Shown here: positions 3,410 to 19,587 of the stretch, piece by piece
Numbering within the stretch: position 1 is the stretch's first letter
Layout: every line of letters begins with the position of its first letter
NCBI GenBank assembly: GCA_903854475.1
Contig: CAINWP010000184.1
Span: forward strand, 1 to 34,708
Length of the DNA: 34,708 nt
Reading direction: 5' to 3'
Source: an uncultured Verrucomicrobiota bacterium
GTDB lineage: Bacteria > Verrucomicrobiota > Verrucomicrobiia > Limisphaerales > UBA9464
Made by a program: the position numbers and the translations under genes
Notes under the pieces: generated by a model
What the model saw: only the letters and a program-made list of their open reading frames with translations
Told to the model about the DNA's origin: nothing
The model's database searches: none

Positions 3410-4687
3410 GTGAGTCATGATTATGATGCCATCGTTCTTGGAGGAGGCCCGGCCGGTAGCTGCGCGTCTTCGTACTTGGCTCGTGCTGGCCATCGGGTGC
3501 TTTTGCTCGAAAAAGAACGGTTCCCAAGGTTCCACATCGGAGAATCACTGCTCCCCTACAATCACGAAATACTTTTAGAGTTAGGTGTTATTCCGCAGCT
3601 AGAGGCCGCTGGCTTCCCTGTCAAACGGGGCGCTCAGTTCCACCTGGGCAATGGTTCAAAGAGTACGGGGTTTGTTTTTCGAAACGGCCGTTTTACGAAG
3701 CATACTGAAGCCTTTCAGGTCGAGCGGTCTCGATTCGATGAAATCCTGTTGAGACACGCATCCACTCTCGGGGTCGAAGTAAGGGAGGAGCATGAGGTTC
3801 AGCAGGTAACAGCTGACAAAACCGGCGTGACTGTCGTCGCTCGTGGCAATGATGCTACTTCAGAATTCCGCGCTCGATTTGTCATCGATGCCACTGGGCG
3901 CGGTAATCTCACGGGCAACCAAGAAGGGATCAAGGAAGTGAATCCATTCCTTCGAAAACTGGCGGTATTCGGTCATTTCGAAAACGTCCTCTTGGACTCT
4001 GGTCAAAAAGGTGGCGATACAGTAATCGTTCGACTTGAGAACAAGTGGTTCTGGCTCATTCCGTTGGCTCTCGGGGCTGAGGGAACCCCATCCAAGGTCA
4101 GTGTGGGACTTGTAATGGATCGGGATGAATTCACCGCATCGGGGCAAAAGCCTGAAGAGGTTTTTCGGCACTGGGTGCAACAAAGTCCGCCAGTTCGTGA
4201 ACGCCTCGAAAAGGCTCAACCTGTTTCACCCATTCAGGTGACGTCCGACTTCAGTTACAGGAACCGGACATTATGGTCCAACCGGGTACTGCGAGTGGGA
4301 GATGCCGCCGGATTTATCGACCCCATCTTTTCCAGCGGCGTTTTCCTTGCGATGTTCTCCGGTAAATTGGGGGCCAAAGCGGTCGGGACAGCCCTCAAAA
4401 ACGGCAACAATGGAGACAATGAATTTGTCTTTTTTGAGCGCAGAGTACGGGCAGCGCTGAAGATCTATTCGGAGATGGTTGAGAGTTTCTACACCACTCC
4501 GTTCATGGAACTGTTTTTGGAGCCCCGAGCCAAATGGGACCTGGCCGCCGCCGTGAATGCCATTCTGGCTGGAGAATTGGAGGGAGGCTGGCGTTTGCGT
4601 TGGCGAATGTGGCTGTTCTTTCGATTGGTGCGGCTTCAGGCACATTTCCCTTTGGTGCCGAGGATATCGTTCGCTCGTTCACCATGA
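3410..4687 (+). CDS. flavin-dependent halogenase-like FAD oxidoreductase (first copy)
   Basis: A 425-residue flavoprotein of the tryptophan halogenase-like superfamily. Visible motifs are the FAD-binding GGGPAGS (11-17), FPRFHIGESLLP (38-49) as in halogenases that act on carrier-bound phenols or pyrroles, Lys72 in the region that holds the catalytic lysine, the halogenase signature WFWLIP (213-218, WxWxIP), and GDAAGFIDPIFSSG, where FIDPIFSSG (302-310) fits FxxPxxSxG. Halogenation of an ACP-bound or polyene substrate is therefore plausible; related proteins in pigment clusters may instead be oxygenases. Start is GTG at 3410. Its stop overlaps the next start (ATGA). It heads the coupled operon 3410-9600. 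Confidence 0.85.
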   Translation: MSHDYDAIVLGGGPAGSCASSYLARAGHRVLLLEKERFPRFHIGESLLPYNHEILLELGVIPQLEAAGFPVKRGAQFHLGNGSKSTGFVFRNGRFTKHTEAFQVERSRFDEILLRHASTLGVEVREEHEVQQVTADKTGVTVVARGNDATSEFRARFVIDATGRGNLTGNQEGIKEVNPFLRKLAVFGHFENVLLDSGQKGGDTVIVRLENKWFWLIPLALGAEGTPSKVSVGLVMDRDEFTASGQKPEEVFRHWVQQSPPVRERLEKAQPVSPIQVTSDFSYRNRTLWSNRVLRVGDAAGFIDPIFSSGVFLAMFSGKLGAKAVGTALKNGNNGDNEFVFFERRVRAALKIYSEMVESFYTTPFMELFLEPRAKWDLAAAVNAILAGELEGGWRLRWRMWLFFRLVRLQAHFPLVPRISFARSP

Positions 4688-5166
4688 CTTGCCTGAGCCC
4701 ACAGTCAGGCAGTCAACGCGATTGGAAGTTTGCTGTGCCCCTCATTTTTTCCCTCATGGGATGGGGTTGCTCCACAGCGATGTTACCGGCGGTAGACTTG
4801 GCCCAACCCGGCTGGGCAGTTCAACGGATGGAGGCAGTTTGGACGCCGCGCCTTGGAGCACCAGAACTCACCGGTGAAGTGACGATAGCCAATCACGCCA
4901 CTAATGGTCGGCTCGTGCTCTTCAGCAAACAAGGACTCCCCATGGTTTCGGCCCGCACCGTGACAAACCGTTGGACACTGGCATCACCGCTGAAGCGCGG
5001 AGCATACGGCGGACGGGGGCTACCTCCTCGGCAGGTGCCTTGGTTCCTGCTGACTGATATCAAGGGCATCCAGACGGCTTCGAAGCCTTGGCTCCTCGAA
5101 ACTACCGCTACGGGTTGGCAGATTTCGAATCCCATCACCGGAGAAAAATTGGAGGTAGTCCCTTGA
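4684..5166 (+). CDS. putative lipoprotein of an aryl-polyene-type export operon
   Basis: A 160-residue protein with an N-terminal hydrophobic stretch (about 16-28) ending in WGC29ST, an atypical lipoprotein box, so it is probably anchored in a membrane facing the periplasm. The rest is hydrophilic with no motif I recognise. Position and size match the small lipoproteins that accompany MMPL exporters and LolA-like carriers in aryl polyene clusters (for example the DUF3261 type), but homology was not shown. It is coupled on both sides: ATGA overlap with the halogenase-like gene and TTGA overlap with the exporter gene. Confidence 0.7.
   Translation: MTCLSPQSGSQRDWKFAVPLIFSLMGWGCSTAMLPAVDLAQPGWAVQRMEAVWTPRLGAPELTGEVTIANHATNGRLVLFSKQGLPMVSARTVTNRWTLASPLKRGAYGGRGLPPRQVPWFLLTDIKGIQTASKPWLLETTATGWQISNPITGEKLEVVP
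5151..5155 (+). promoter_or_regulatory. Shine-Dalgarno that fixes a TTG start for the exporter gene
   Basis: GGAGG lies seven nucleotides before TTG at 5163, inside the end of the preceding lipoprotein gene. The TTG overlaps the TGA stop (TTGA). The resulting protein begins MSRRLLIWVGIAVVAWGLF, a proper first membrane segment. This supports TTG over the in-frame ATG at 5088, which would add 25 residues antisense to nothing and unlike an exporter N-terminus. Confidence 0.85.
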
Positions 5167-8100
5167 GCCGACGCCTCTTGATTTGGGTCGGTATCGCCGT
5201 AGTGGCTTGGGGACTTTTTCGACTGAAATTTGATGCAGATGTCCTGAATTTGCTTCCAGCAGAGTTACCCGCTGTTGGTGCGTTGAAATTGCACCAACAA
5301 AGGTTTGCAACCGGTGCTGAGACTTTGATCACGCTTTCTGGCGCTGAGGCTGGAGATGCAGCCAAAGCGGCTGAAAGAGTTGCCAATAGGCTACGATCGA
5401 TGCCTGAGATTGCGCGTTCAGTGCATTGGCAATCGCCCTGGTTGGAGAACACGGGAGATGCCGTCGAAAACCTCGCTTGGTTGTGGTTGCAACAAGATCC
5501 GGCCGCCCTTAGCAGCCTTCTGGACCGGTTAGGTCAACCGGAGGTTCAACTGGAGTCGGCTGTTAATGACCTGACCACCTCATTGGATCCAAAGACTCTG
5601 GCCATGGCCGCTTACGATCCCCTGGGGTTGGCGCAACTTCCCGGTTCAGCAGGGTCGGCCATCGGTAAGGACGACGGCGCAGGACTCTTCAGCGGTGACG
5701 AGGGGCGGTTCCGCGTCGTTTCGCTCCAACCGTCCAATCCGAAGATGGACTACAAAACCGCCGCGCTTTGGGTGGAACGTGTGCGTCAGGAGGTGGCCCA
5801 AACGATTGCCTCTGAAAGTTTGGATATTCGAATTGGGATGACCGGTGGACCCGTTTTCCTCTCAGAGATTGCAATCGGTATGGAACGAGATCTCCGGAAC
5901 TCGGTTCTTCTCACAGTTGTTGTTATCGCCTTCCTCTTCTGGATTGCCCATCGATCGCTGCGCCCACTGGTCTGTCTGGTAGGATCCTTGGCAGTGACCT
6001 TGGTGGTCACAATCGCATTGGGAGGACTTTTCCTTGGGACTCTCAATGTGATCAGCACTGGCTTTGCTGCAGTCCTCATTGGGTTGGTTGTGGACTATGG
6101 CTTGGTGGCTTACCAGGAAGCTCGGGTTCATCCGAACCTCAACGTCAACGAGTTGCGCCGGCGCATTGCTCCCGGGATTGGTTGGTCTGCGGTCACTACC
6201 GCTGGGACTTTCTCGGTTTTGGGACTCACTGGATTACCAGGTCTCTCCCAGTTAGGCCTCCTGACGGCTATTGGCTTGATGGTGGGTGCCGCGGTCATGG
6301 TCTTCGGCTTTCTTCCGATCGCCCTGAAACAGATGCCGAGCGAAGCATCGGTTGAGCCCAAACTTCTCGTTACCAATTCAGGCCGCCCTAAACGCTGGTG
6401 GCTCCCTACCGCCATTGCTCTTTCAGCCATCGCCCTAACTCTGGGTCTCCGTGGTTTACCGAAAGCAACCGCGAGTTCCGACCCGTTGAGACCGAACAAC
6501 AGCCCCGCATATGAGTCGATGGATCGTCTCCAAGCTGCGCTAGGGAGAACCAACGACACAATTTGGCTCATTGTTCGCGGGAAAAACCCGGAAGCCGTGG
6601 GCAGGCTATTAATCTCTACAGAGGCAATTCTCACCCAGGCGCGAGACGCTGGAAAACTGAGCGAGTTTCAGATTCCTACCGCATTTTGGCCGATGGCCTC
6701 CAATGCTGCGCAAAACCTGCCCAAAACAGCCGCGTTATCGGAGAAATTGGGGCTCATCAAAGCAGCGGTGTTGCATGCGGGATTCACCACCAATTCTACG
6801 ATCCTAATCGAGGAAGTAGGCAAGAGGTGGGAGCAATGGCGCAAAGACCCGGCAGGGATTCCGCTCTGGCCCAGCAACCCAACCGCACAGTGGATTCGAG
6901 ACCGTTGCTCTGCGACGGACTCCGATGGTTCCTGGTTGGCTTTAGGGCTCGTTACACCGATGTCTGGCTCCGGTAAATTGCCCAACCTACCGGAAGGGGT
7001 TCTATCGGCGAGCTGGAACCGACTCGGAGAATCCCTGTGGGACCATGTTCTTCAGCGGGTCATCAGCCTAACCATTGGGCTCTCGGTCGTCCTGATTATC
7101 GCCCTTTGGCTCGCCTTTCGCAGGATTGCGGAGGTGATCATCAGTTTGGTGGCATTAATTTCTGCATTCGCCCTTTTGCTCGCGGGCATGGCGGCACTGG
7201 GCGCCACATGGAACCTTCTTAATCTGGTCGCGATACCACTCCTTCTCGGGTCATCGGTAGACTCGACCATTCACATTCAACTCGCGATGAGGCGCTATGG
7301 TTCAGACCGACGCGCACTCTGGGCCTCGACGGGACGTGCTCTGCTTCTCTGCGCCGGAGCCAATATCGCAGGATTTGGATCTCTTGCCTGGAGCAATAAC
7401 GCAGGCCTCGCCAGTCTGGATCTCGTCTGCGCGGGTGGGGTCGCATGCGTTTTCGTCGTTGCCGTAATTTTGCTGCCCTCTTGGTGGTTAGCTTGCGGAC
7501 TCAACGGGCGCAGCATGACAACCAAATCACCGAGTAAGGTCTCCCAGCTCTACCGCTCCCATTGGTGGGGGTGGGGCCGTACTTTGGTGGCCTGCATCCC
7601 TCGGAATCTTGCCACAAGTATCAGCCGGCAACTGGGAGCCCTCTACGCAACTCTCAATCCTCAGCGGCGAAACATTGTCGCAGCCAATTTGCTGCCCGTG
7701 CTGGGGAACAAGTCCGACATGTTGAATCGCCGAGCTAGGAACACCTTCCGCGAATTCGGTGGGAAATTGGCCGACCTGCTGCTCTTTGAATCCGGGGTAT
7801 CATTGGACGCGTGGGTAGAGCCCGGCAACGGTTGGCAACATTTTGACGCCGCAAGGGCCTCAGGCAAAGGGATGCTGCTGGTCACCATTCATCTCGGGAA
7901 TTGGGAGCTCGGTAGTGTGCTTCTTCGTCGCATGGGACTCTCCCCGCTCGTCCTCACGGCTCCTGAACCAACAGCCGACCTCACTCAATTGCGGTTGGCC
8001 GCAAGAGAACGACTAGGAATTGAAACTCTGGTGGTTGGAGAAAATCCGTTTCAGTTTGTCGAAGTCATCAAACGACTTCAGGACGGAGGTGTCGTAGCTA

Positions 8101-8426
8101 TTCTTGTTGATCGGCCTCCAATTCAGGCGGCGGTACCGTCTCCGTTTCTCGGTGGCACCACTGGAGCAAATATCGCGACCGCCGAACTCGCACGTGCAAC
8201 CGGTTGCATCATCCTTCCTGTTTACGTCGTGCGACATGGCTCGAACTACCTGACGCACGTTTTAAAACCGGTCGAATACGAACGCGGCAATCTGGGATCC
8301 AGAGAAACTAGACGAGAACTCGCTTCGAGGGTTCTTCAAGTCTTTGAGGCTGCTGTGCGAGAACACCCTGAACAGTGGTACCATTTTGTCCCGATCTGGA
8401 CTCAAACTTCGGATTCAACCCAATGA
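5163..8426 (+). CDS. MMPL/RND-type lipid exporter fused to an LpxL/HtrB-like acyltransferase
   Basis: A 1087-residue fusion. Residues 1 to about 780 form an MMPL-type exporter: first membrane helix (4-18) then FDADVLNLLP, a periplasmic domain, a helix block with LIGLVVDYGLVAYQEAR, a second periplasmic domain, and a second block with LLGSSVDSTIHIQLA. From about Met785 (base 7515) to the end is a lysophospholipid acyltransferase domain with HLGNWE at 910-915, the H-x4-D/E catalytic signature, plus AILVDRPP and PSPFLGGTTGANIATAELA further on. In aryl polyene clusters exporter and acyltransferase are normally separate genes, so the fusion suggests that the product is acylated or lipid-anchored and then handed to the transporter. 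Met785 could serve as an internal start giving a separate acyltransferase. The stop overlaps the next start (ATGA). Confidence 0.9.
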   Translation: MSRRLLIWVGIAVVAWGLFRLKFDADVLNLLPAELPAVGALKLHQQRFATGAETLITLSGAEAGDAAKAAERVANRLRSMPEIARSVHWQSPWLENTGDAVENLAWLWLQQDPAALSSLLDRLGQPEVQLESAVNDLTTSLDPKTLAMAAYDPLGLAQLPGSAGSAIGKDDGAGLFSGDEGRFRVVSLQPSNPKMDYKTAALWVERVRQEVAQTIASESLDIRIGMTGGPVFLSEIAIGMERDLRNSVLLTVVVIAFLFWIAHRSLRPLVCLVGSLAVTLVVTIALGGLFLGTLNVISTGFAAVLIGLVVDYGLVAYQEARVHPNLNVNELRRRIAPGIGWSAVTTAGTFSVLGLTGLPGLSQLGLLTAIGLMVGAAVMVFGFLPIALKQMPSEASVEPKLLVTNSGRPKRWWLPTAIALSAIALTLGLRGLPKATASSDPLRPNNSPAYESMDRLQAALGRTNDTIWLIVRGKNPEAVGRLLISTEAILTQARDAGKLSEFQIPTAFWPMASNAAQNLPKTAALSEKLGLIKAAVLHAGFTTNSTILIEEVGKRWEQWRKDPAGIPLWPSNPTAQWIRDRCSATDSDGSWLALGLVTPMSGSGKLPNLPEGVLSASWNRLGESLWDHVLQRVISLTIGLSVVLIIALWLAFRRIAEVIISLVALISAFALLLAGMAALGATWNLLNLVAIPLLLGSSVDSTIHIQLAMRRYGSDRRALWASTGRALLLCAGANIAGFGSLAWSNNAGLASLDLVCAGGVACVFVVAVILLPSWWLACGLNGRSMTTKSPSKVSQLYRSHWWGWGRTLVACIPRNLATSISRQLGALYATLNPQRRNIVAANLLPVLGNKSDMLNRRARNTFREFGGKLADLLLFESGVSLDAWVEPGNGWQHFDAARASGKGMLLVTIHLGNWELGSVLLRRMGLSPLVLTAPEPTADLTQLRLAARERLGIETLVVGENPFQFVEVIKRLQDGGVVAILVDRPPIQAAVPSPFLGGTTGANIATAELARATGCIILPVYVVRHGSNYLTHVLKPVEYERGNLGSRETRRELASRVLQVFEAAVREHPEQWYHFVPIWTQTSDSTQ

Positions 8427-9142
8427 CCGCACAGACCAAGTGTTTATCAACGAGGTTTCGCCGCTTCGGGGGGCTTTTCTTCCTAATTTGCGGCGTTCTT
8501 TGGGGCCGCATGTTGAATGCCGCTGATAAAGAACAGCTAGTCACCGAATGGTTGACCGCGGCAAAATCCCTCCAGACTTGGGAGGCACAGGTACTTCAAA
8601 CGCGACACTTGAAGGCGTTCACCCAGCCATTGGTTTCTACCGGCAAGGTATGGTTTGCCACCCCTAATCAGTTCCGTTGGCAACTAGGTGAGCCGGTGCA
8701 GTCTCTTGCTTTGCGGGCCGGATCTGAGCTGTGGATTCTCTCCCCAAAATTGCGACGAGCCGAGCATTACCGACTCGATTCCCTGGGCAATGGCCCAGCC
8801 AAAGACTTGATGGGTTTGCTGGATATGGGTTTCCCGAAGGATGAGGCAAGTTTTCGGAAGCAATTCCGGATACTGGATGTTTCCACCAATGCAATGAACT
8901 GGAGCTTTCGGATGGAACCACAGTCCGCGTCGGTGAAAAATATGCTCCCTGAATTGAAGGTGGAAATCGCGGCAGGCACCAAGCAGCTGATCGCCACAGA
9001 ACTGATTCTGAAAGATGGATCCCGCTTGCGAAACGAATTCAAGGAATTGCGGCGCAACTCAGAATTATCGACCGATTTATTCACCACCAATCTGGATGCC
9101 ACATGGAAAATCACGACAAGCGGTCCTCCCCTGAAAAAGTGA
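8423..9142 (+). CDS. LolA-like outer membrane lipoprotein/lipid carrier
   Basis: A 239-residue periplasmic protein with a signal peptide (MTAQTKCLSTRFRRFGGLFFLICGVLWGRMLNA). The mature part has the LolA-like pattern: SLQTWEAQVLQTRHLKAFTQPLVSTGKVWFATPNQFRWQLGEP, then a beta-rich domain ending with SELSTDLFTTNLDATWK. LolA-type proteins ferry hydrophobic lipids across the periplasm; versions in polyene clusters act with MMPL exporters. The ATG at 8423 is chosen over 8375 because it overlaps the upstream stop (ATGA) and begins the signal peptide. The 3' end overlaps the dehydratase gene. Confidence 0.85.
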   Translation: MTAQTKCLSTRFRRFGGLFFLICGVLWGRMLNAADKEQLVTEWLTAAKSLQTWEAQVLQTRHLKAFTQPLVSTGKVWFATPNQFRWQLGEPVQSLALRAGSELWILSPKLRRAEHYRLDSLGNGPAKDLMGLLDMGFPKDEASFRKQFRILDVSTNAMNWSFRMEPQSASVKNMLPELKVEIAAGTKQLIATELILKDGSRLRNEFKELRRNSELSTDLFTTNLDATWKITTSGPPLKK

Positions 9143-9600
9143 CTCTCGATGAAGCATTGAAATCGCTGCCGCATGGAGCTGGTTTCCGATTCATCGACAG
9201 GCTGATCGAACTCATTCCAGGAGTCTCCGGCAGCGGTGAATTTCTTCTCCCGAAAGACCACGCCTCGTTACCCGGGCATTTTCCAGGAAACCCCCTAATG
9301 CCAGGAGTACTCATGGTGGAGGCACTTGCCCAACTGGCCGGTGTGGTCGCCCAATCCGATCCAACTCGCTGTCCTCTTCTCGCGTTAAAACTGACAGGGA
9401 TCCGTCAGGTCAAAATTAATGGCAGTATCCGGCCGGGGCAGACACTAACTATTGAAACTCAGATTTCCGGTCGAATGGGTGGCCTCATACAAGCGCGAGG
9501 GTCTGTCAGCTCAGCGGGACAAGTTCTGTTGCACGGAGAAGTAACCCTGTCCGGCAGTGAACCAGTCCGGCCAGTCCAAGTTCCTCAAGCAAAAGGTTAA
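9103..9600 (+). CDS. FabZ-like 3-hydroxyacyl-ACP dehydratase (hotdog fold)
   Basis: Removes water from 3-hydroxyacyl-ACP to give the trans-2-enoyl-ACP, here probably once per polyene extension cycle. The 165 residues contain LPHGAGFRFIDRLIEL (FabZ N-terminus LPHRyPFLLvDrv) and GHFPGNPLMPGVLMVEALAQLAG with His59 and Glu73 at the catalytic positions, giving a normal FabZ length. Two starts are possible: ATG 9103 (40-nt overlap with the LolA-like gene) or GTG 9139, which overlaps the upstream stop as GTGA and gives MTLDEALKSLPHG, closer to the usual FabZ N-terminus. Last gene of the left operon; the convergent ligase gene ends 11 bp beyond. Confidence 0.9.
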   Translation: MENHDKRSSPEKVTLDEALKSLPHGAGFRFIDRLIELIPGVSGSGEFLLPKDHASLPGHFPGNPLMPGVLMVEALAQLAGVVAQSDPTRCPLLALKLTGIRQVKINGSIRPGQTLTIETQISGRMGGLIQARGSVSSAGQVLLHGEVTLSGSEPVRPVQVPQAKG

Positions 9601-9611
9601 CTTGGCAAGGG

Positions 9612-10868
9612 TTACCCACAGGTAGCCAGAAAACGCTCACGCCACAATTTTCTCGACCGTTTGCCTCGAATATCAGCGGGGATTTCCTCGAGAAACCACC
9701 AGCGGCGCGGTAATTGCCAAGAGGGCAAAGACCGCCCCAAGAAATTTCTGAGTTCCATTTCGCTGACGGGATGTTTCAGAGCCACAGCGGCCACAATGGC
9801 CTCATTCCGCCCGCCTGCCTCAGGGACAGAAAACACCAGCACATCTGCAACCGCTGGATGGTCCCGAATTTGAACTTCGATCGTCTCTGGCCCCACTTTG
9901 CGACCAGCCACGTTGATCAAATCTGTCGAACGTCCCAAAAGCCGGATTTGCCCAGACGGATCCATCTCCGCGAAATCACCGGACCGATAGATCCCACCGC
10001 CCAACCGATCGTCTGATTCAGGATAATAGGTCTCAGCGACGGCAGGGCTTTGCACCTCAAGACACCCATCATCCGCGATATTAAGTTGGACTCCCTTCAT
10101 GGCAGTCCCTGCGACCGTCCAATCACTTCGTGGCTCTGCAGTCCGATCATAGGCAATACCCCCACACTCTGAAGCGCCCAGAAAGTTGTGGACCTTGATG
10201 CCATCCCGTTCGAACAAAAAGCGCTCCAGTTCGACCGGCAACGGTGCGCCAGCGGATATCGCCAGCCGGATACTGCTTGGGAGTTTCCCGCCATTGGCCC
10301 AGGCCTGCCACAGCGCGGGCACTGCGGGCAGACTGACATCCGACCATTGACTGGCCTCTTGAAACACGGCTGCAGGAAAGGCCGACGGGAGCAAAATTAG
10401 TGGGATACCATGCAGCAACAGAGGCAGAACTAGATTGGAAAACCCATAGCTATGAGCCAGCGATATAACCCCCAAATTCGGCGAGTCCTCATGGAGTCCC
10501 ATGGTGGCGACAATCTGCTCAGCATCTGCCGCCATTTGGGCGCCCGATAGACCAATCATCCGGGCTGGACCCGTTGTGCTGGATGTCAGCTTCATGTGGG
10601 AGAACCCCTCAGCTCTTTGGGCTGCTACCGGAGCCTCCTGTCCCGGCTCAAGAGGGCACACCATGCTGCCCATCCGCCATCCGCGAAGAACCTCTATGAC
10701 GAACCCAGCATCGCGTCCCGATGGATGGACGATTCGCGGTACTGCAGGTGCCGACAACAACTCCCGCTGAAGATCTGAAAAGGACCAGACTCGACCACTA
10801 GCCCGATCATAAAGCGCTGGTCGGTCGGTGTGGCTCTCGAGAGTCCTTAGCCACTGTTCGTAAAGCAT
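9612..10868 (-). CDS. AMP-forming acyl-CoA/acyl-ACP synthetase (starter ligase candidate)
   Basis: A 418-residue member of the ANL adenylate-forming superfamily, shorter than typical acyl-CoA ligases (over 500) but near the size of aryl polyene ligases. Motifs: LTSSTTGPAR (phosphate loop, about 94-103, variant of TSGTTGxPK), GASECGGIAYD, YRSGDFAE, GRSTDLINVAGRKVGPETIE (hinge) and GKRSRKLWRE with the C-terminal lysine. It probably activates an aromatic or fatty starter acid and loads it on the ACP. The ATG at 10868 is preceded by AAAGGA at good spacing; the longer frame to 11078 runs under the divergent gene and is rejected. Monocistronic on the minus strand. Confidence 0.88.
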   Translation of the reverse strand: MLYEQWLRTLESHTDRPALYDRASGRVWSFSDLQRELLSAPAVPRIVHPSGRDAGFVIEVLRGWRMGSMVCPLEPGQEAPVAAQRAEGFSHMKLTSSTTGPARMIGLSGAQMAADAEQIVATMGLHEDSPNLGVISLAHSYGFSNLVLPLLLHGIPLILLPSAFPAAVFQEASQWSDVSLPAVPALWQAWANGGKLPSSIRLAISAGAPLPVELERFLFERDGIKVHNFLGASECGGIAYDRTAEPRSDWTVAGTAMKGVQLNIADDGCLEVQSPAVAETYYPESDDRLGGGIYRSGDFAEMDPSGQIRLLGRSTDLINVAGRKVGPETIEVQIRDHPAVADVLVFSVPEAGGRNEAIVAAVALKHPVSEMELRNFLGRSLPSWQLPRRWWFLEEIPADIRGKRSRKLWRERFLATCG

Positions 10869-10942
10869 CGTCCTTTCTGTTTGGCCAGCGAATGCTTGTC
10901 CGCGCAAGCTGTATGTCGAATGAAGGAAGCCATTCAACGACC

Positions 10943-12090: not shown

Positions 12091-12092
12091 CA

Positions 12093-12845
12093 ATGTTTCT
12101 CCGCCGCCGGGATCTCACTCCAGAATACTTTGACTCGCCAGAGCGGACCTCAACTGAGCTTGCCGAACACTACGAGTGGCTGGGGCGGATGAACAAGCTC
12201 ACTCAATTTGACCGACCTTTTCGCATCTGGATTCCAGAGCTTCTAGGAGTCGAAGCCTGCAAACAGCTCTCCATTGTCGATCTGGGTGCAGGGTGTGGGA
12301 TGTTGGGACAGACATTGACTCAGTTTGCACGAGGTCATGGTTGGGATTGGCGGTTTACCAACGTGGATATCAACCTGCCGCAACCTGGAACCAAGGATTC
12401 AACTTCAGCAACCTGGGTTAAAGCCTCAGTCACGGATCTCCCTTTCGCTGCAAATTCGTTCGATCTAGCGATTGGAACAACCATGACCCATCACCTCAGT
12501 AGTGATGCCGATGTCACGGCCCATTTCCGCGAGGCTAGGAGGGTCGCACGCCAAGCTGTCTTAATCTGCGATATGGTTCGCAGCCCGTTTTTTCTAATTG
12601 CACTCTGGGCGGTGCTCGTCGCGCTCAGGGCACCGAAAGAGTTTCGACAAGATGGAGTTCAATCCGTCAAACGTGGGTGGCTGGAGTCTGAGTGGCGGCG
12701 ACTGGCAGCCTTGGCTGGAATGAATAAAGCACGGGTTTGGTCCGAGCATGGCACTCGAATTCTTTTGGCTCATTGCCTTAGGGACGGCACCGCCGAGCAG
12801 CCTGATACCAAAGAAACCAACGGACCGCGTCCCTCAGCGGTCTGA
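12093..12845 (+). CDS. SAM-dependent class I methyltransferase
   Basis: A 250-residue Rossmann-type methyltransferase. Motif I is VDLGAGCGMLG (62-72), followed by FTNVDIN at the acidic end of strand 2, VTDLPFAANSFDLAIGTTMTHHLSSD (motif IV/post-motif), and RRVARQAVLICDMV. The N-terminus MFLRRRDLTPEYFDSPERT supports the ATG at 12093; the longer frame to 12048 overlaps the divergent gene. A hydrophobic stretch FFLIALWAVLVAL suggests membrane association. It probably O- or C-methylates the polyene head group, as methyltransferases do in pigment clusters (inference). The last 68 nt overlap the convergent glycosyltransferase gene. Confidence 0.88.
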   Translation: MFLRRRDLTPEYFDSPERTSTELAEHYEWLGRMNKLTQFDRPFRIWIPELLGVEACKQLSIVDLGAGCGMLGQTLTQFARGHGWDWRFTNVDINLPQPGTKDSTSATWVKASVTDLPFAANSFDLAIGTTMTHHLSSDADVTAHFREARRVARQAVLICDMVRSPFFLIALWAVLVALRAPKEFRQDGVQSVKRGWLESEWRRLAALAGMNKARVWSEHGTRILLAHCLRDGTAEQPDTKETNGPRPSAV

Positions 12846-13446
12846 TCTTGCTGTCCTGATCATCGTAGCGTGCCTCGATTGGTAAAAACTCAATCCGATG
12901 ACCGGCTCGGGCAAAGGCAAAGCACATCTCCGATTCGATCTCGAAGTGATCCGCTTTGAGATTGAGTCGAAGGAGGGGTGCCAGATTAACCAGCCGATAA
13001 CCGCACTGGGAATCTGGCAGGGGCATTTGGCAAAGCTCTGAAAGCCGGCGACTCATCCACTGGTTGGTCCAGCGCCGGATTCGAGGCACCGAACCCGTTT
13101 CACCTGCAAAACGATTCCCGATTACCAGATCGGCACCGATGGACTCTTGGTAACTGATGAAACGCGGAGCATCATTTGGATCGTGCTGGCCATCGCCATC
13201 CAGCAGAAGAACTCGAGTCGCACCGAGTCGGGCAGCCGCATCCCATCCATACCGCATGGCCGCTCCCTTTCCTGAATTGGTTTGAAGATCGAGCACCAGC
13301 GCACCGGCCGATCTGGCTGCAGATCCAGTCGCATCTTTAGACTGATCATTGACCACAATAATCGAGTCAACCCAGCCGCGAAGCCCAACGATCACCGGTC
13401 CAATGGTCGTCTCCTCGTTCCGACATGGGATGACGGCGGTTAGCAC
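12778..13446 (-). CDS. family 2 glycosyltransferase (dolichol-phosphate mannosyltransferase-like)
   Basis: A 222-residue GT-A enzyme: AVIPCRNEETTIGPVI at the N-terminus, VVNDQSKDAT (32-41), NSGKGAAMRYGWDAA, and the metal-binding LLDGDGQHDP (81-90). No C-terminal membrane helices are present, so it is a soluble or peripheral catalytic domain transferring a sugar from a nucleotide-sugar donor, perhaps to the cluster product or a lipid carrier. Start is GTG at 13446; no strong Shine-Dalgarno. It is convergent and overlapping (68 nt) with the methyltransferase gene, and divergent from the radical SAM gene 55 bp away. Confidence 0.88.
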   Translation of the reverse strand: MLTAVIPCRNEETTIGPVIVGLRGWVDSIIVVNDQSKDATGSAARSAGALVLDLQTNSGKGAAMRYGWDAAARLGATRVLLLDGDGQHDPNDAPRFISYQESIGADLVIGNRFAGETGSVPRIRRWTNQWMSRRLSELCQMPLPDSQCGYRLVNLAPLLRLNLKADHFEIESEMCFAFARAGHRIEFLPIEARYDDQDSKIRPLRDAVRWFLWYQAARRCRP

Positions 13447-13501
13447 TGCTGAAGGCTTCCCGATGCCTTGGCTACCCGTCCACTAAACAAAGGCATTCTG
13501 A

Positions 13502-14557
13502 TTGAACTACCCGACGCTAGATAGTGTGCCTTACCCTGCACCTGTGGCTCAATTCCCGACAACCCAGCAGTTGGAATCCCAAGGTCCACTCCAGCAGGAG
13601 TTGCATGAAGCCGCGCTTGCGACGGCACGAAAAACCTTTGGTCGCGCGGTCTATGTCCGCGGTGTCGTTGAGGTTTCCAATTATTGCAGAGAAAACTGCC
13701 ATTACTGCGGTATGCGGCGCTCCAACCGAGGGTTGAACCGATACAGGGCGGAAGCGGATAACCTTCTGCGCATGTTGCTTGATGAACGGCCGAAGTGCAT
13801 CACCGACATCAACATTCAGGCTGGGGAAGATCCGGTGGCAGTCCGTGAAGTGGTCATGCCTCTGGTTCGCGCACTGAAGGCGTCGACGACCTTGGGAATT
13901 AGCGTGTGCCTGGGAACCCTTTCCCCTGACTTGACCCGTGACCTGCAAGAGGCGGGCGCTGCTGTTTACATCATCAAGTTCGAACTGGCGAACGCCGACC
14001 TCTACCGGGATCTCGAAGCCCCAGGCACCTTGGAGGAGCGCACCAACTACATACGGTGGCTTGCCGCTGAAGGTTGGGAAATCAGCTCAGGTTTCATCGC
14101 CGGTCTACCCGGCCAAGGGATTGAGGCAACTCTAGAGAACTTTAGATTGGCCGATTCGTTGCCGCTGGTGGGTTGCAGCGTCAGTCCTTTTATTCCAGGC
14201 GATGCCACTCCACTCGCATCGTCGGAATCAGCGAGTCTGGATCTGACACTCAACTGCATGGCTGCCCTCCGTATCATGCGGCCTGATTGGGTTATCCCGG
14301 CGGTCAGTGCCTTAAATCTGGCCGGCCCCGGATCTGGATATCAGCGCGGGTTAATGGCAGGTGCAAACCTGTGCACGATCAACCTGACCCCAGAGCGCCT
14401 TCGAGAAGATTACCTCCTCTACCGTAAGGACCGCTTCATCATGAATGAGGAACGGATTCTGAACGCGATTCAGTCAGTCGGTTGTCATCCGTCAACAACC
14501 AGCCTAGCAGAACGTTTTGCGCGGCACTCGCCTCGCTCGGCACTGATTACGGCCTAA
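13502..14557 (+). CDS. HydE/PylB-like radical SAM enzyme
   Basis: A 351-residue radical SAM protein. Cys62-x3-Cys66-x2-Cys69 in SNYCRENCHYCGMRRSN binds the 4Fe-4S cluster; the surrounding RGVVEVSNYCRENCHYCGMR, RYR, IQAGEDP, KFELANADLYRDL, GFIAGLPGQGIE, SPFIPGDATPLAS and the late NLTPERLREDYLLY closely follow the HydE/PylB/BioB group. HydE helps assemble the [FeFe]-hydrogenase cofactor and PylB rearranges lysine, but no hydrogenase or pyrrolysine gene is in the window, so a role in making a building block or tailoring the cluster product is likely (inference). Start is TTG at 13502 with AAAGG eight bases before. The 3' end overlaps the next, opposite gene by 11 nt. Confidence 0.88.
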   Translation: MNYPTLDSVPYPAPVAQFPTTQQLESQGPLQQELHEAALATARKTFGRAVYVRGVVEVSNYCRENCHYCGMRRSNRGLNRYRAEADNLLRMLLDERPKCITDINIQAGEDPVAVREVVMPLVRALKASTTLGISVCLGTLSPDLTRDLQEAGAAVYIIKFELANADLYRDLEAPGTLEERTNYIRWLAAEGWEISSGFIAGLPGQGIEATLENFRLADSLPLVGCSVSPFIPGDATPLASSESASLDLTLNCMAALRIMRPDWVIPAVSALNLAGPGSGYQRGLMAGANLCTINLTPERLREDYLLYRKDRFIMNEERILNAIQSVGCHPSTTSLAERFARHSPRSALITA

Positions 14558-16082
14558 TCGGAGGTGTATTCTCTAAGGGTTCCTGCACGAACCAACTCCG
14601 CCATCCCTCAGCCAATTCCAGCTTCATGTAGCGAGTGAAGGCTTTGAGGATGTCGGAACCGGTCGATCTTTCTGGGAGAAAACCGTTTAAGAGAAATCGC
14701 CGCCCGTTGTTGTGCTTTCCTGCTGTGCCTCGCCGACGTCGGTCGCGCGCCATCCGGGCTAACCTCCGATTGTAAAAACTCATCAACCGGAATGGGACTG
14801 CACTTGGGGGAGTAGAGAACACGGGTTCAAGGAGGGCTCGTTCCCCGCGTTCTACCGGCTGAGAAACGACACCCGCGTAGTACATCCCAAGATCCAGATG
14901 AAATGCGATCGACATGAGCTCGAAGTCGCCGAAGACATCGTACTTGTCTTTGTAAATCGCCTTGAACCACCGATCGTACGACTTACAGAAGTCCTGATTG
15001 AATCGCCCGACCAGAGGTTTGGTGTCTTGGCCTTCCAGATGGTTTCCAATCAACTCGACCGCCCTGCTGACTGTGTATGATAGCCAGTCCATCCCAGGGC
15101 TGTAAAATGGGTCTAAAAAGCCCGCAGCATCCCCCACCAACACGAACCCGTCTCCGGCGAACCGGGACGAACAATAGGCCAAGTGAGACCTCCAGTTCGC
15201 ATCCCCGTCAACAGGTTCAGCCTCCGCCAACAACTCGCGTGGGACCGGATGTTGCGAAAGGAAAGTTCGCAGCCGTTCTGGAATCGAATCTCCGGGAGGG
15301 ATCTCAACTCGACGATGATCAAAAACGACTCCAATGGAAGTCTCGCCACCTTTAAGCGGAATGCACCAAGCCCACCAACCGTCGCCCATGAAATGATTGG
15401 TCGCCGTGCCTCGAACCCCTTTGCAGGCGGATGCCCATTCGGGGAAACGACCAGCGAGTTCCAATCCGTCGAAATCTTTAACCTTCTTCCAACGAGTCCA
15501 AATCGCTGAAGTCGGGTGCTCGGCGTTCCGGTGAAACCAACCGTTTTGACGCGCAAGCAACGCTGTGAACCCAGTAGCGTCGACCACCCATCGAGCTCTA
15601 ACTGTCCGTCTCACTCCCAGTGTTTCGAGGTCGACGGTCTGCAACCCACCATCCGCAAGTCTAACACGGTTAACCTTGGCTGGTCGGATGACTTGCACGC
15701 CTGACCGCTCTGCTTGGCTCAGCACTTCAAGATCCAGGGTTGAGCGATCGACCTGCCAAGCAGGCATTCTTGCCAGATATCGCCCCCCAACTTCAGAACA
15801 TTGATCCAACTGACTGGTTTGATCATTGCTGAACCAGAATCGCATCCCCTGTTTGTTGAGGTGGTTCTCGTTCAGGTATTGAGTCAGGCCAAGAACTCGA
15901 GAGAGAAAAAAACCGCTCACCTCAACAGTCGCTTCACCCACACGGCGACCGAAGTCCGCCGACTTCTCGATGACAGCGATTTTGCAGCCAGGAAAACGCC
16001 GCGATAGGAGCAACCCTGTGGAAGAACCGGCCAATGAACCACCGAGGATGACCACGTCGTAGATGTTCGTGTCCGAGTCCAA
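14547..16082 (-). CDS. flavin-dependent halogenase-like FAD oxidoreductase (second copy)
   Basis: A 511-residue flavoprotein, only distantly similar to the first copy. Motifs: GGSLAGS (14-20), RRVGEATVE (46-54; the GEAT turn of tryptophan halogenases), Lys77 in LNKQGMRFWF, WWAWCIP (236-242, fits WxWxIP) and GDAAGFLDPFYSPG with FLDPFYSPG (322-330, fits FxxPxxSxG). It has a long C-terminal extension, rich in Arg/aromatics, that may bind membrane or partner. Predicted to halogenate or hydroxylate the polyene or its aromatic end. Start is TTG at 16082 after an AGG-containing stretch; no in-frame ATG is near. Divergent from the ketosynthase operon. Confidence 0.83.
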   Translation of the reverse strand: MDSDTNIYDVVILGGSLAGSSTGLLLSRRFPGCKIAVIEKSADFGRRVGEATVEVSGFFLSRVLGLTQYLNENHLNKQGMRFWFSNDQTSQLDQCSEVGGRYLARMPAWQVDRSTLDLEVLSQAERSGVQVIRPAKVNRVRLADGGLQTVDLETLGVRRTVRARWVVDATGFTALLARQNGWFHRNAEHPTSAIWTRWKKVKDFDGLELAGRFPEWASACKGVRGTATNHFMGDGWWAWCIPLKGGETSIGVVFDHRRVEIPPGDSIPERLRTFLSQHPVPRELLAEAEPVDGDANWRSHLAYCSSRFAGDGFVLVGDAAGFLDPFYSPGMDWLSYTVSRAVELIGNHLEGQDTKPLVGRFNQDFCKSYDRWFKAIYKDKYDVFGDFELMSIAFHLDLGMYYAGVVSQPVERGERALLEPVFSTPPSAVPFRLMSFYNRRLARMARDRRRRGTAGKHNNGRRFLLNGFLPERSTGSDILKAFTRYMKLELAEGWRSWFVQEPLENTPPIRP

Positions 16083-16093
16083 CTGACCTGAGA

Positions 16094-16130
16094 TTCTATA
16101 GAAATCTTGGATTTATTGGAACGAAATCCA
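16094..16130. promoter_or_regulatory. palindromic operator candidates between divergent cluster operons
   Basis: In the 96-bp gap between the second flavoprotein gene and the ketosynthase gene lie a perfect 10-bp palindrome TTCTATAGAA (16094-16103) and a 7-bp inverted repeat TGGATTT (16108-16114) / AAATCCA (16124-16130) with a 9-bp spacer. They are placed where one regulator could control both directions. No regulator gene is present in the window; the function is inferred. Confidence 0.4.
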
Positions 16131-16178
16131 TCGAACGCTGAGGGGAGGGTTTGACCTCGATAAAACCCGGGGCCTACG

Positions 16179-17441
16179 GTGCCAAGAGTGCCATCGATAT
16201 CCGGACACCAAACAACTGTGCCGCGACCCCATCGGCGCGTTGTGATCACTGGCGTTGGCATCATCACCCCGTTAGGAGCTGGTTGGTGCTGCAATCAAGA
16301 AGGTTTTAGAAGCGGCAAACAAGCATTCGGCCCAGTGAGTCTGTTTGATGCGTCCCGGCAACGAACCAAGATCGCCGCAGAAGTGGTCCTGCCAGAAATC
16401 CCGGTGGCCAGTCGGCTATCTATCAAAGAATTTCAGCGGATCGACCGCGCCGGAAAAATGCTGCTCTGGGCCGCTGTCGAGGCGTGGCAGCAAACGGGAT
16501 GGTCTGCCACCGAAGACCAGATTCCCATGGTTCTCGGCACGACCAGTGGGGGGATGACTTTGGGGCAGGATTTTTACCGTCAAGCTTTTGGTTCCGGCCT
16601 ATCCACTAGACTTCAATCAACTCGAATCACGCATTATCAGCCTCAGAGACAAGCCCTCGATGTCATGGATGCACTTGGATTCTCGGGGCCGGTGAGCATC
16701 ATCGCCAACGCCTGCGCTTCGGGGTCCAACGCGATCGGTCATGCCTTTGAAATGGTCCGGTCTGGGCAATACACTCGGGCAGTTTCAGGCGGCTACGACG
16801 CCATCAGCCAGTTGGTTTTTGCTGGCTTCGATTCACTGCAGGCGCTCTCACCCACCGGCGCTAGGCCATTTCACCTCAGGCGAGACGGTTTGACTTTGGG
16901 AGAAGGTGCCGCGGTGCTATGCCTCGAAGAACTGGATTCAGCCCTCCATCGAGGAGCCCAAATCCATGGCGAAATCTTGGGCTATGGGTCCGCTACGGAT
17001 GTTTCACACCTGACCCAACCTCATCCGGATGGCGATGCTGCGCTGGCAACGATGCAGGCTGCTTGCGAGATGGGGCGAGTTGAACCGCGCGACATCGGTT
17101 ACCTCAATGCTCATGGGACTGGCACCCTGCTGAATGATTCGTCTGAGGCGCGCGCCATCGCTCGTTGGGCGGGCGATGACGCAAGGAATCTCCCAGTCAG
17201 TTCAACGAAGGCCGGCATCGGCCATTTATTAGGGGCTGCGGGCGCTATTGAAGCGGTGGTCTGCCTGATGGCACTTGCAGGCCAATGGCTACCACCTCAG
17301 GGACCCACCGATGAAGTAGACCCCAACTGTAATTTCCCTTTGGTAGTCAGCCCTCAGGACCGAGAATTCAGCCTAGCTTTGAGCAACTCCTTCGGATTCG
17401 GGGGTGCGAATGCGAGTCTCTTGTTCGGGAGGCGGATATGA
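16179..17441 (+). CDS. beta-ketoacyl-ACP synthase (KAS II/KS-alpha type)
   Basis: Condensing enzyme that extends the ACP-bound chain by decarboxylative Claisen condensation with malonyl-ACP. The 420 residues hold the complete triad: Cys179 (IIANACASGSN), His312 (LNAHGTGTLLND) and His349 (GIGHLLGAAGAIEA), with Lys344 and the C-terminal SNSFGFGGANAS. Starts are GTG 16179, 16188 or 16218; the last gives MPRPHRRVVITGVG, closest to other ketosynthases. A strong AGGGGAGGG stretch (16141-16149) lies too far upstream to serve these starts. The stop overlaps the next gene (ATGA), as expected for a heterodimer partner. Confidence 0.92.
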   Translation: MPRVPSISGHQTTVPRPHRRVVITGVGIITPLGAGWCCNQEGFRSGKQAFGPVSLFDASRQRTKIAAEVVLPEIPVASRLSIKEFQRIDRAGKMLLWAAVEAWQQTGWSATEDQIPMVLGTTSGGMTLGQDFYRQAFGSGLSTRLQSTRITHYQPQRQALDVMDALGFSGPVSIIANACASGSNAIGHAFEMVRSGQYTRAVSGGYDAISQLVFAGFDSLQALSPTGARPFHLRRDGLTLGEGAAVLCLEELDSALHRGAQIHGEILGYGSATDVSHLTQPHPDGDAALATMQAACEMGRVEPRDIGYLNAHGTGTLLNDSSEARAIARWAGDDARNLPVSSTKAGIGHLLGAAGAIEAVVCLMALAGQWLPPQGPTDEVDPNCNFPLVVSPQDREFSLALSNSFGFGGANASLLFGRRI

Positions 17442-18409
17442 TTCCGATCTATGTCCATGGTTGGGGCGCCGTGTCTCCGGTTGGCTGGGGAATGGCCTCG
17501 TTGGTGTCATCACTCGCCCAAGATCAACGCCCTGCATCGACGCAAATTCAGCGTCCTGATGGCTTCCCGATTTCGGTTCACAAGGTGCCCATCCGAAACC
17601 CTCGACCTCCGTTTCTCGCGCTGCCCAGGCTTAGGCGAGCCAGTCCTACGACCCACTTCATTGTGGGAGCTGGTCTTGAAGCGTTGGGGCTGACCGACCG
17701 ACCCACCGAGTCCAAGCGTGTTGGAGTAATTTGTTCAGTGATGGGAGGGAGTGTGATCTACTCCGAGAGATTCTACGGTGAGGTCCTAGCTGAGCCTCGA
17801 ACAGCCAGCCCTCTACTGTTCCCGGAAACCGTCTACAATGCCCCCGCTTCCCACTTGAGCAGTGTCTTGGGCTCAACCGAACGGAATTACACCCTGGTGG
17901 CCGACCAAACCGGGTTCCTTGACGGGCTTTCAACCGCCGCGACTTGGTTGAATGAAGGGCTTGTAGAGTCCTGCGTTATCATTGGGGGCGAAGAAGTTGG
18001 ATGGGCGACTGCGGAAGCTGGAAGGCTGTTAAGTCCCTTCCCAATTGCTGAAGGAGCGGGCGCTGTACTTCTGAGCACCCAGCCATCTTCGGTTCGCTTG
18101 AAATTGATCACCCGGGCTCACCCGTTTGTTCGCTCCAAACGTCGCAGTGACGTCTGGTCGGATATGGTCAACGAACTGCTAAGCGCGGGAGCATCAGTGC
18201 CGGATTGGTTACCCCCGCAAAAGCCAGGGAGTTGCCTTTCGGAAGGAAGCGGCAACTTGGCAACTTTCTTAGGGGATGGCTTGGCAGCTGGCGGCGCATG
18301 GGCTACGGCCGCAGCGGTTGCTTCTGTCGCCCGCGGCCGGAACTCAGCAGCAGTCGGTATCTTTGGATCAAACTTCCAAGCCCGAGGGGCCATCTTTGTC
18401 AGAGAATGA
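17438..18409 (+). CDS. ketosynthase-like chain-length factor (KS-beta type)
   Basis: A 323-residue thiolase-fold protein related to ketosynthases but lacking their active site: the nucleophile position reads VADQTGFLDG, with Gln157 in place of Cys, the hallmark of chain-length factors in type II polyketide and aryl polyene systems. The HGTGT and GHxxGAAG histidine motifs are absent. It begins MIPIYVHGWGAVSPVGWG and ends GIFGSNFQARGAIFVRE. It probably pairs with the adjacent ketosynthase to set chain length. It is coupled to it by an ATGA overlap. The shortness (about 320 versus about 400 residues) is typical of the reduced chain-length factors in aryl polyene clusters. Confidence 0.85.
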   Translation: MIPIYVHGWGAVSPVGWGMASLVSSLAQDQRPASTQIQRPDGFPISVHKVPIRNPRPPFLALPRLRRASPTTHFIVGAGLEALGLTDRPTESKRVGVICSVMGGSVIYSERFYGEVLAEPRTASPLLFPETVYNAPASHLSSVLGSTERNYTLVADQTGFLDGLSTAATWLNEGLVESCVIIGGEEVGWATAEAGRLLSPFPIAEGAGAVLLSTQPSSVRLKLITRAHPFVRSKRRSDVWSDMVNELLSAGASVPDWLPPQKPGSCLSEGSGNLATFLGDGLAAGGAWATAAAVASVARGRNSAAVGIFGSNFQARGAIFVRE

Positions 18410-18452
18410 AAGCCCCGGAGTAGGCTGCCAGATACGCTCGGAATCTCAGAAT

Positions 18453-19196
18453 ATGAACCCCAACAAAAATCCTCGAGTCGCAATGGTTACCGGTGCCAAT
18501 GGCGGAATTGGTCTCGCGGTTGCGAGAAGGCTCTTGTCAAAGAATCCAGATTCTCTGGTTTGGCTGGGCGTCCACTCGCGCCGGGATAATGCCGACCAAC
18601 TCGCCGACACCTTTGGCGGACGCGCGGTGGTGATCTCATTGGACGTGACGGACCGTCCATCTTGGGACCGGGTGGTTGCTGAAATAGTAGCCAAAGCCGG
18701 AAGGCTCGATGTCTTGGTGAATAACGCAGGGACACATGAGGATTCACTTCTGGCTACGATGCCCGCTGAATCCTGGGACCGCGTGTTGGCAATCAATCTG
18801 AATTCAGTTTTTCACGGCTGCCAATCCGTCATGCGGACGATGATCGGTCAGCGTTTCGGGAGAATCGTGAATGTGTCATCCCTCAGTGCTCTCCTCGCAC
18901 CCCCGGGGCAAACCAACTACGCCGCCTCCAAGGCTGGCGTCATCGGCTTCACACAATCCCTCGCCAAAGAGGTGGCCCGCATGAACATCACGGTGAACTC
19001 GGTCTGCCCGGGCTACGTGGAAACCGAGGCGATCGCCAACCTGCCCACCGACCATCGAAAATCCCTGCTCGATAGGATTCCTATGAGAAGGCTCGGGCGG
19101 CCCGAAGACGTGGCTGCCGCGATCGATTTCCTCGCCAGCGACGACGCGAGCTATATCACGGGAGCAACGCTCAAGGTTGACGGCGGAATCCTTTGA
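18453..19196 (+). CDS. 3-oxoacyl-ACP reductase (SDR family, FabG-like)
   Basis: NADPH-dependent reduction of 3-ketoacyl-ACP to the 3-hydroxy form. The 247 residues have TGANGGIG (13-20) for cofactor binding, NNAG (90-93), Asn115 in LAINLNSVF, Ser142/143 in VNVSSLSALL, and Tyr156-x3-Lys160 in NYAASKAG, followed by VNSVCPGYVET and ITGATLKVDGG; all catalytic residues are present. The ATG at 18453 is the only suitable start, as the longer frame runs inside the chain-length-factor gene. It lies 43 bp after that gene and 38 bp before the ACP gene in the same operon. Confidence 0.93.
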   Translation: MNPNKNPRVAMVTGANGGIGLAVARRLLSKNPDSLVWLGVHSRRDNADQLADTFGGRAVVISLDVTDRPSWDRVVAEIVAKAGRLDVLVNNAGTHEDSLLATMPAESWDRVLAINLNSVFHGCQSVMRTMIGQRFGRIVNVSSLSALLAPPGQTNYAASKAGVIGFTQSLAKEVARMNITVNSVCPGYVETEAIANLPTDHRKSLLDRIPMRRLGRPEDVAAAIDFLASDDASYITGATLKVDGGIL

Positions 19197-19234
19197 AAAC
19201 GCCCATACTGCGCCCTTAAAGAATTGACCTTCCC

Positions 19235-19498
19235 ATGACCGAAACCGAACTGCTCGAGCAGATCCGCAACATGCTGGTGGACACCTTGATGCTTACGACT
19301 CCAGCAGCAGAAATTGAATTCGATACCCCTCTCTTTGGCCCCGGTGGATTGGGTTTGGATTCCGTTGATGCCCTCCAACTAGTTGTCGCCCTCGACAAGA
19401 ATTACGGAATCAAGATCACCGACCCAGCAGCAGCAAAAGACGCACTGCAAAGCATCACAAGCATGGCAAAGACGGTGATGGATAGCCGTCCCAAGTGA
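19235..19498 (+). CDS. acyl carrier protein
   Basis: An 87-residue carrier protein of normal length. Ser43 in LGLDSVDALQL is the phosphopantetheine attachment site; the protein is acidic and helical (MTETELLEQIRNMLVDTL...). It carries the growing chain for the ketosynthase/chain-length-factor pair. No phosphopantetheinyl transferase is in the window, so activation must come from elsewhere. It ends the biosynthetic operon; the following lipoprotein gene may be read through. Confidence 0.92.
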   Translation: MTETELLEQIRNMLVDTLMLTTPAAEIEFDTPLFGPGGLGLDSVDALQLVVALDKNYGIKITDPAAAKDALQSITSMAKTVMDSRPK

Positions 19499-19587
19499 AG
19501 TTCGATTCTTTACCATTCCACATCAAACCAGCGGACTCTCCAGCCAACGAGCACGAGCTCTACGTTTCAGCTGGTTCCTCCATTTTT

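Follow-up and report, generated by a model that had tools for sequence, protein, structure and literature searches.

A HydE/PylB-fold radical SAM protein linked to aryl-polyene-type gene clusters of Verrucomicrobiota, and its possible part in starter supply

The window analysed here, by which is meant the whole stretch of 34,708 nucleotides (positions 1 to 34,708 of contig CAINWP010000184.1, assembly GCA_903854475.1, from an uncultured verrucomicrobial bacterium of the Limisphaerales lineage UBA9464), carries an aryl polyene (APE)-type gene cluster that holds a gene (13502-14557) for a radical S-adenosylmethionine (SAM) protein of the HydE/PylB fold. The gene is associated with the pathway across the genomes sampled; the reaction of its product we infer from comparison between clusters, and the reading that we favour, tentatively but as a serious possibility, is that the protein supplies the acid starter loaded by the ligase of the cluster. 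In the proposed scheme, a type II system of ketosynthase (KS) and chain-length factor (CLF) would make an exported, lipid-linked pigment of aryl-polyene type; the radical SAM protein would be a dedicated enzyme of this pathway, neither a hydrogenase nor a pyrrolysine enzyme, making or setting up a (hydroxy)aryl carboxylic acid that the AMP-forming ligase would load on the acyl carrier protein (ACP) as starter. The same role would fall, in sister clusters, to a XanB2/Hyg5-type chorismatase or to a module of flavin adenine dinucleotide (FAD) oxidoreductase and second ACP (ACP2); a reaction compatible with the fold would be C-C cleavage or rearrangement, acting on an aromatic amino acid or on an acid of the shikimate pathway.

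An earlier note, made from the letters of this DNA, had placed an aryl polyene/xanthomonadin-type gene set here, and the list of open reading frames (ORFs) and the profile searches of the window bear it out: the cluster spans 3410-19995, its APE-type core is complete (KS and CLF, ketoreductase, dehydratase, ACP and ligase together), and the export part is present as a LolA-like carrier, an MMPL/RND exporter and an acyltransferase, so that the cluster, judged by its gene content, is of the APE/xanthomonadin type. Its right edge is a PEGA lipoprotein at about 19995, beyond the 19498 given earlier. All genes then named are present; two flavoproteins (FADox1, 3410-4687, and FADox2, 14547-16082) and a 273-residue protein, hyp273, had been omitted. 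The KS partner described as a Cys-to-Gln variant is correctly so described for the CLF of the window; across 15 CLFs, the position of the active-site Cys holds Glu in eight, Asp in four, Gln in two and Pro in one, the Gln thus not being conserved.

The radical SAM protein contains both the superfamily domain (PF04055, 48 bits) and the CxxxCxxC site, and scores below the cut-offs of the profiles of its named relatives, with 183.4 bits against 254.6 for HydE (TIGR03956), 114.4 against 348.2 for PylB (TIGR03910) and 63.5 against 225 for BioB (TIGR00433); the HydE profile gives 175-205 bits on four other orthologues and 311 on two true HydE proteins of the same class. Its best sequence match in the PDB is HydE 5fep (6e-44), followed by PylB 3t7v (4e-21), and the AlphaFold2 model (predicted local distance difference test, pLDDT, 89.2) superposes on HydE with Z 41 and a root-mean-square deviation of 2.4 over 327 residues, ahead of PylB (Z 35.7), biotin synthase (32.0), HydG and ThiH (about 30) and NosL (about 27), which confirms the HydE/PylB type assigned before. 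A tree of 36 proteins places the 22 orthologues together in a single clade (99/99), separate from HydE and from a third HydE-like group; because long branches meet in this tree, it does not fix the relative branching of the three. C62, C66, C69 and C136 are invariant in 22/22 orthologues; compared with ten HydE-type proteins, the family has C136 where HydE has Ser, K159 for Arg, S226/S228 for Gly, G233 for His and V268/S269 for Thr, the HydE signature SLGE/R/H/TT being replaced by CLGT/K/G/VS. By its sequence, then, the radical SAM protein of the pigment clusters is a separate family, related to HydE yet distinct. The third group (L068, L070 and L071) has C136 and K159 in common with it, shows 32-35% identity, scores 191-211 bits with the HydE profile and, in the two of its three loci whose neighbours were scanned, adjoins transporter genes, QueT and EamA in L068 and EamA in L070; it probably represents the salvage enzyme of queuosine called queuine lyase, an assignment that takes queuine lyase to be a radical SAM enzyme. 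The existence of a queuine lyase is recorded in the accessible part of its source (PMC7694415).

The distribution of the gene was followed in 286 genomes of the class (matches at 1e-30). Matches occur in 52, of which 46, spread over 21 family groups, hold an orthologue of at least 48% identity (a fragment in G021, split over two frames in G057), and the remaining six hold just relatives of 30-35%. Among 288 genomes drawn from the phylum, the four orthologues included score 288-558 bits; matches from outside the class stay at 206-233, and the six of these that were placed in the tree group with HydE. The CLF, searched with a profile built from 15 CLFs at 1e-30, was found in 95/286 genomes; it accompanies the orthologue in 44/46 and occurs in 51 of the 240 genomes without one (Fisher 1e-22, genomes counted as independent), and chance co-occurrence is therefore excluded. 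As to the two exceptions, in G125, with no CLF, a stop interrupts the radical SAM frame from within and hyp273 is partial, and in G121, with no CLF match, a KS fragment lies on the contig together with hyp273. The 11 genomes sampled from the family to which the window belongs divide into six with both genes, four with neither and one with the CLF alone. At the level of loci, KS or CLF accompanies the radical SAM gene in 22 of 36 (the window and the genome set) and any other cluster gene in 32. For the best 80 of 147 named loci, some of which are the same contigs, the figures are 46 and 68, and KS or CLF adjoins in 27/32 of those of at least 15 kb; in the other 12/80 the radical SAM gene has no further cluster gene next to it, and ten of these loci are shorter than 15 kb.

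Such conservation bears on the possibility that the pathway starts from a housekeeping aryl acid (e.g., 4-aminobenzoate) and that the radical SAM protein, like the group found beside QueT and EamA, works in a salvage reaction unconnected with it, being a neighbour only by history. The sharing of C136 and K159 with that group speaks for it; the pairing with the CLF, which persists through 21 family groups and through several arrangements of the cluster, and the interrupted radical SAM frame of G125, where the CLF is gone, render it highly improbable.

To a role in hydrogenase or pyrrolysine assembly, with the gene misplaced or used elsewhere in the genome, we give virtually no credence, even with HydE and PylB as the nearest named relatives: besides the separate clade, the sub-cut-off scores with TIGR03956 and TIGR03910 and the replaced S/R/H/TT signature, HydF exceeds its cut-off in 0/46 orthologue genomes, the source genome included, and in 4/52 of all those tested, all four with just a low-identity true HydE. 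Weaker matches to the HydF profile (its GTPase part) occur in all 52 genomes and in all 14 control genomes. The HydE role is ruled out by the absence of HydF and by the scores (HydG, HydA and the pyl genes were not searched for as families), and no hydrogenase maturation set explains the gene, in agreement with the earlier remark that hydrogenase assembly is not seen here.

As regards the starter, XanB2 is a chorismatase. Xanthomonadin-like pigments receive their starter, 3-hydroxybenzoate, from enzymes of the XanB2/ORF5 type and, in Lysobacter, the XanB2-like ORF5 is the proposed 3-hydroxybenzoate maker, its deletion having cut pigment by about 90% (PMC3691225, in its accessible part). The E. 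coli APE pathway, as described in the accessible part of PMC8253772, takes 4-hydroxybenzoate from a chorismate lyase outside the cluster and has no starter enzyme inside it, and the missing starter enzyme, presented in the earlier note as unusual, is therefore not odd in itself. What is found here concerns the whole source genome (4.44 Mb, 340 contigs, 97.3% complete), in which neither the ammonia lyase family nor a chorismatase homologue nor a chorismate lyase of the Rv2949c type was found; UbiC is missing from all 49 CLF genomes tested, the source genome included, the Rv2949c-type enzyme occurs in 2/49, and an ammonia lyase in 5/75 CLF genomes tested, two of these five among 38 that also carry the radical SAM gene (hereafter rSAM-plus, the others being rSAM-minus).

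Many rSAM-minus clusters hold instead a FAD oxidoreductase (PF12831); their loci were fetched and compared by profiles (recurring in L196, L199, L202, L203, L205, L210, L214, L221 and L242-L257). A second ACP is present in 22/25 fetched loci with the FAD oxidoreductase, and several also hold a second, distinct ligase clade and a protein that its sequence motif marks as condensation-type, like an acyltransferase of that kind. At the thresholds used, the FAD oxidoreductase is found neither in the 36 radical SAM loci nor in the best 80 of 147 named loci; over the 80/95 CLF genomes searched, a FAD protein at 1e-100 or better, a line set afterwards at a score gap, occurs in 24/43 rSAM-minus and 0/37 rSAM-plus genomes, so that, by count, the exclusivity of the two is strong. 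In the KS tree, which comprises 59 of the 74 loci tried (KS match of at least 400 bits, no stop; labels assigned by hand; L208 of G282 and L212 of G009 labelled as having neither without a search for the FAD module), each label is found in each of the two deep clades, and four or more switches separate them.

A third candidate module is a chorismatase homologue. PF21168, the chorismatase family, finds matches in 7/49 CLF genomes, five of them over the cut-off, and six of the proteins keep the motif C-R-x-x-L-x-x-E; the match of G018, below the cut-off and without the Cys, was dropped. One of these proteins, when searched, matches 5ag3 at 1.9e-12, an entry titled putative pteridine-dependent dioxygenase that we take to be Hyg5, and the homologue of G152 matches it at 1e-38; in 5a3k, compared with 5ag3 over the stretch shown, Ser replaces exactly the motif Cys. 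Homologues keeping the motif occur in 5/8 tested genomes with neither of the other modules (G052, G152, G239, G244 and G284, from five families), against 1/36 rSAM-plus genomes (Fisher 3e-4, post hoc, with genomes counted as independent); set against every rSAM-minus genome among those tested, they number 5/13 (Fisher 0.003). Long chorismatase homologues with the Hyg5-like Cys/Glu motif lie away from recognised cluster genes in L236-L239 and L241, and in L240 a chorismatase-family N-terminal part without the Cys is fused to what appears, by eye, to be a second radical SAM domain. A swap at the same spot in family f42, of the G152 chorismatase for the FAD module of its relatives, was considered and rejected, the neighbours being different and the MMPL gene the sole link with the pathway. 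The ligase of the cluster (LIG1) connects these modules: in the chorismatase genomes G284 and G052, it nests among rSAM-plus ligases (best identity 63% and 56%), as expected if both kinds of cluster load the same acid; no ligase was found in the fetched loci of G239 and G244.

It is also conceivable that the radical SAM protein makes a non-aromatic or amino-acid block by a PylB-like rearrangement, serving as starter or lipid head, and that the product is not an aryl polyene. The model lies near PylB as well as HydE, and searches of the source genome for four aromatic starter families found no member; set against this are the nesting of LIG1 in two chorismatase genomes, which suggests the same kind of acid, and the PylB score, far under its cut-off (114 of 348 bits), and we consider this origin of the block improbable. 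Three unrelated modules that, among the genomes tested, rarely co-occur, one of them of an established starter type, together with one ligase family, suggest rather that the radical SAM protein supplies the starter, the three then sharing this one role. The earlier idea of a building block made or modified by the radical SAM enzyme gains comparative support from the other modules of sister clusters, the reaction itself being deduced.

Several observations weigh against starter supply. The earlier note proposed to check such clusters for the constant presence of the radical SAM gene and named clusters lacking it as a refutation; 51 of the 95 CLF genomes are without it, so that the gene is not always present; we read these clusters as cases of replacement, not of refutation, because many of them hold other candidate supply modules. 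Three genomes with a CLF (G013, G211 and G249, the last a single contig) carry no module of any of the three kinds, and 11 more, which have neither the radical SAM gene nor the FAD module, lay outside the chorismatase search. The line at 1e-100 was chosen after the fact, as said; at 1e-60 the FAD profile matches 31/80 genomes, 4/37 rSAM-plus ones among them (G136, G172, G186 and G280). The two labels are clustered by lineage, and an independent-pairs test of their exclusivity, with just two supported pairs, is not significant. As to the chorismatase homologues, the single rSAM-plus genome holding one (G056) has both modules; that of G239 is below the cut-off, kept for its Cys/Glu motif, and without it the comparison becomes 4/8 against 1/36 (Fisher 0.002); just the homologue of G152 adjoins a possible cluster gene (MMPL), the others lying away from recognised cluster genes, and the ligase of G152 falls beside the ligase of a FAD-module genome instead of among those of rSAM-plus genomes; moreover, the counts refer to CLF genomes only, with no background count from genomes lacking the pathway. 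Finally, genes for B12-binding radical SAM proteins sit in some clusters, with or without the HydE-like gene (L044, L051, L056, L187, L188 and L191), for which reason tailoring by radical SAM enzymes in these clusters is plausible.

Tailoring is the main rival: the radical SAM protein would act on the polyene, finished or still growing, or on the head group or lipid anchor attached to it (e.g., by a C-C bond, a desaturation or a sulfur step), while the starter would be a common metabolite. A decoration would be expected to be missing from part of the CLF genomes, as the gene is, and the methyltransferase, the GT2 glycosyltransferase and the flavoproteins suggest a decorated product, in line with the B12-type genes; an independent decoration would not predict the exclusion of the FAD module (0/37 against 24/43 at 1e-100) or the near exclusion with chorismatase homologues, and we regard tailoring as rather unlikely. 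Starter supply can also be given a more specific form, which we consider possible and hold more loosely than starter supply as such: a HydE-fold, oxygen-independent radical SAM aryl-acid synthase would form a (hydroxy)benzoate-type starter for bacterial pigments from an amino acid or shikimate-pathway acid and, in many Verrucomicrobiota, among them methanotrophs, take the place of chorismatase, chorismate lyase and ammonia lyase. No published description of such a radical SAM protein in APE-type clusters was found in a search that left subscription papers mostly outside; in the accessible part of PMC9902471, radical SAM proteins are mentioned merely as general tailoring enzymes.

The closest 80 of 147 named records are mostly metagenome assemblies of Verrucomicrobia, Limisphaerales or Pedosphaera. 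The methane monooxygenase family PF02461 is present in 8/12 genomes tested, seven of them rSAM-plus and one (G007) with a CLF and no radical SAM gene; culturable verrucomicrobial methanotrophs are therefore probably included among the rSAM-plus genomes. Four records labelled Klebsiella, Acidobacteria, Proteobacteria or Akkermansia (L109, L103, L113 and L084) hold close orthologues of the Verrucomicrobia type, their labels probably being wrong or their bins mixed.

The genes of the cluster are as follows.

3410-4687, plus strand: FADox1, flavin-dependent halogenase/monooxygenase-like (Trp_halogenase; nearest NCBIfam families CmlS and QhpG, below cut-offs)
4534-5166, plus strand: lipoprotein-like ORF without Pfam family, adjoining MMPL in several relatives; true start probably near 4684
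5088-8426, plus strand: MMPL exporter fused to an LpxL-type acyltransferase (PF03176, PF03279)
8375-9142, plus strand: LolA-like carrier (profile match)
9103-9600, plus strand: FabZ/FabA-like dehydratase (profile match)
9612-11078, minus strand: AMP-forming ligase LIG1, presumed aryl-ACP ligase (profile match)
10892-11713, plus strand: hyp273 (273 residues), without Pfam family; Cys in RCFV, His in NHA, Asp-Asn in YDPN; papain-like model
12048-12845, plus strand: SAM-dependent methyltransferase (Pfam)
12778-13446, minus strand: GT2 glycosyltransferase (Pfam)
13502-14557, plus strand: HydE/PylB-fold radical SAM enzyme; CxxxCxxC at C62, C66 and C69; C136, K159; start codon uncertain
14547-16082, minus strand: FADox2, second halogenase-like flavoprotein (QhpG-like, below cut-off)
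16179-17441, plus strand: ketosynthase, active-site Cys in NACASG
17438-18409, plus strand: chain-length factor, Gln in place of the active-site Cys
18276-19196, plus strand: ketoreductase of the short-chain dehydrogenase/reductase family (Pfam); true start internal
19235-19498, plus strand: acyl carrier protein (Pfam)
19495-19995, plus strand: PEGA-domain lipoprotein, relatives of which adjoin the cluster in L035, L043 and L048

Relatives of FADox1 occur in many rSAM-plus and rSAM-minus clusters. Ammonia lyase, thioesterase family and second ACP, stated earlier to be lacking, indeed did not turn up when Pfam was run on 30 ORFs of the window, the last two having been sought in the window only; the statement on the thioesterase is true by family and not necessarily by function, because hyp273 could carry out the release. 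This protein has a conserved Cys, His and Asp-Asn in an apparent papain-type arrangement; its model (pLDDT 82) has a best Z of 7.4, most of the listed rows being papain-type proteases, with no Foldseek match at E below 0.001, and it may perform a release or transfer step in the stead of a thioesterase. It is encoded in 48/286 genomes of the class, 32 of them rSAM-plus and 16 without the radical SAM gene, which rules out a strict co-dependence of the two.

Elsewhere in the window, a TraB/PrgY/GumN domain is joined, in one 980-residue protein (21299-24241, minus strand), to four Ig-like domains and an FGE-sulfatase-like domain, and at 31356-34316 a DUF1552 (HXXSHH) protein adjoins a subtilase-family protein.

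HydE, PylB, BioB, ThiH and NosL carry out unusual radical chemistry on small molecules, to which a branch tied to pigment clusters would add a new reaction; were it the starter enzyme, it would explain the initiation of aryl polyenes where neither a chorismate lyase nor an ammonia lyase is known in the bacterium. The three alternative modules form a ready comparative set.

Compared with known systems, the window shares with the ape cluster of E. coli and Xenorhabdus, as far as this is described in the accessible part of PMC8253772, the KS-CLF, ketoreductase, dehydratase, ACP, ACP ligase, methyltransferase, LolA-like protein, RND/MMPL exporter and acyltransferase; it differs in having one ACP and, among the ORFs scanned, no second KS (ApeR) or ApeK-type thioesterase, in the lack of UbiC in the source genome, and in the addition of two halogenase-like flavoproteins, the papain-like protein and the radical SAM enzyme. 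With the xanthomonadin and Lysobacter clusters it shares a type II KS-CLF pigment pathway and, for xanthomonadin, the lack of a second ACP (PMC8253772, same part); those systems use XanB2/ORF5 for 3-hydroxybenzoate (PMC3691225, accessible part), whereas no such homologue was found in the source genome. As for the radical SAM enzyme, HydE resembles it in the fold, in the CxxxCxxC site and as its best sequence match, and differs in the sub-cut-off score, the missing HydF, the separate clade and the replaced signature; PylB is alike in fold (Z 35.7), with a score under the cut-off; and the group beside QueT and EamA is alike in C136/K159 and in the range of HydE scores, while its identity of 32-35%, its clade and its neighbours set it apart.

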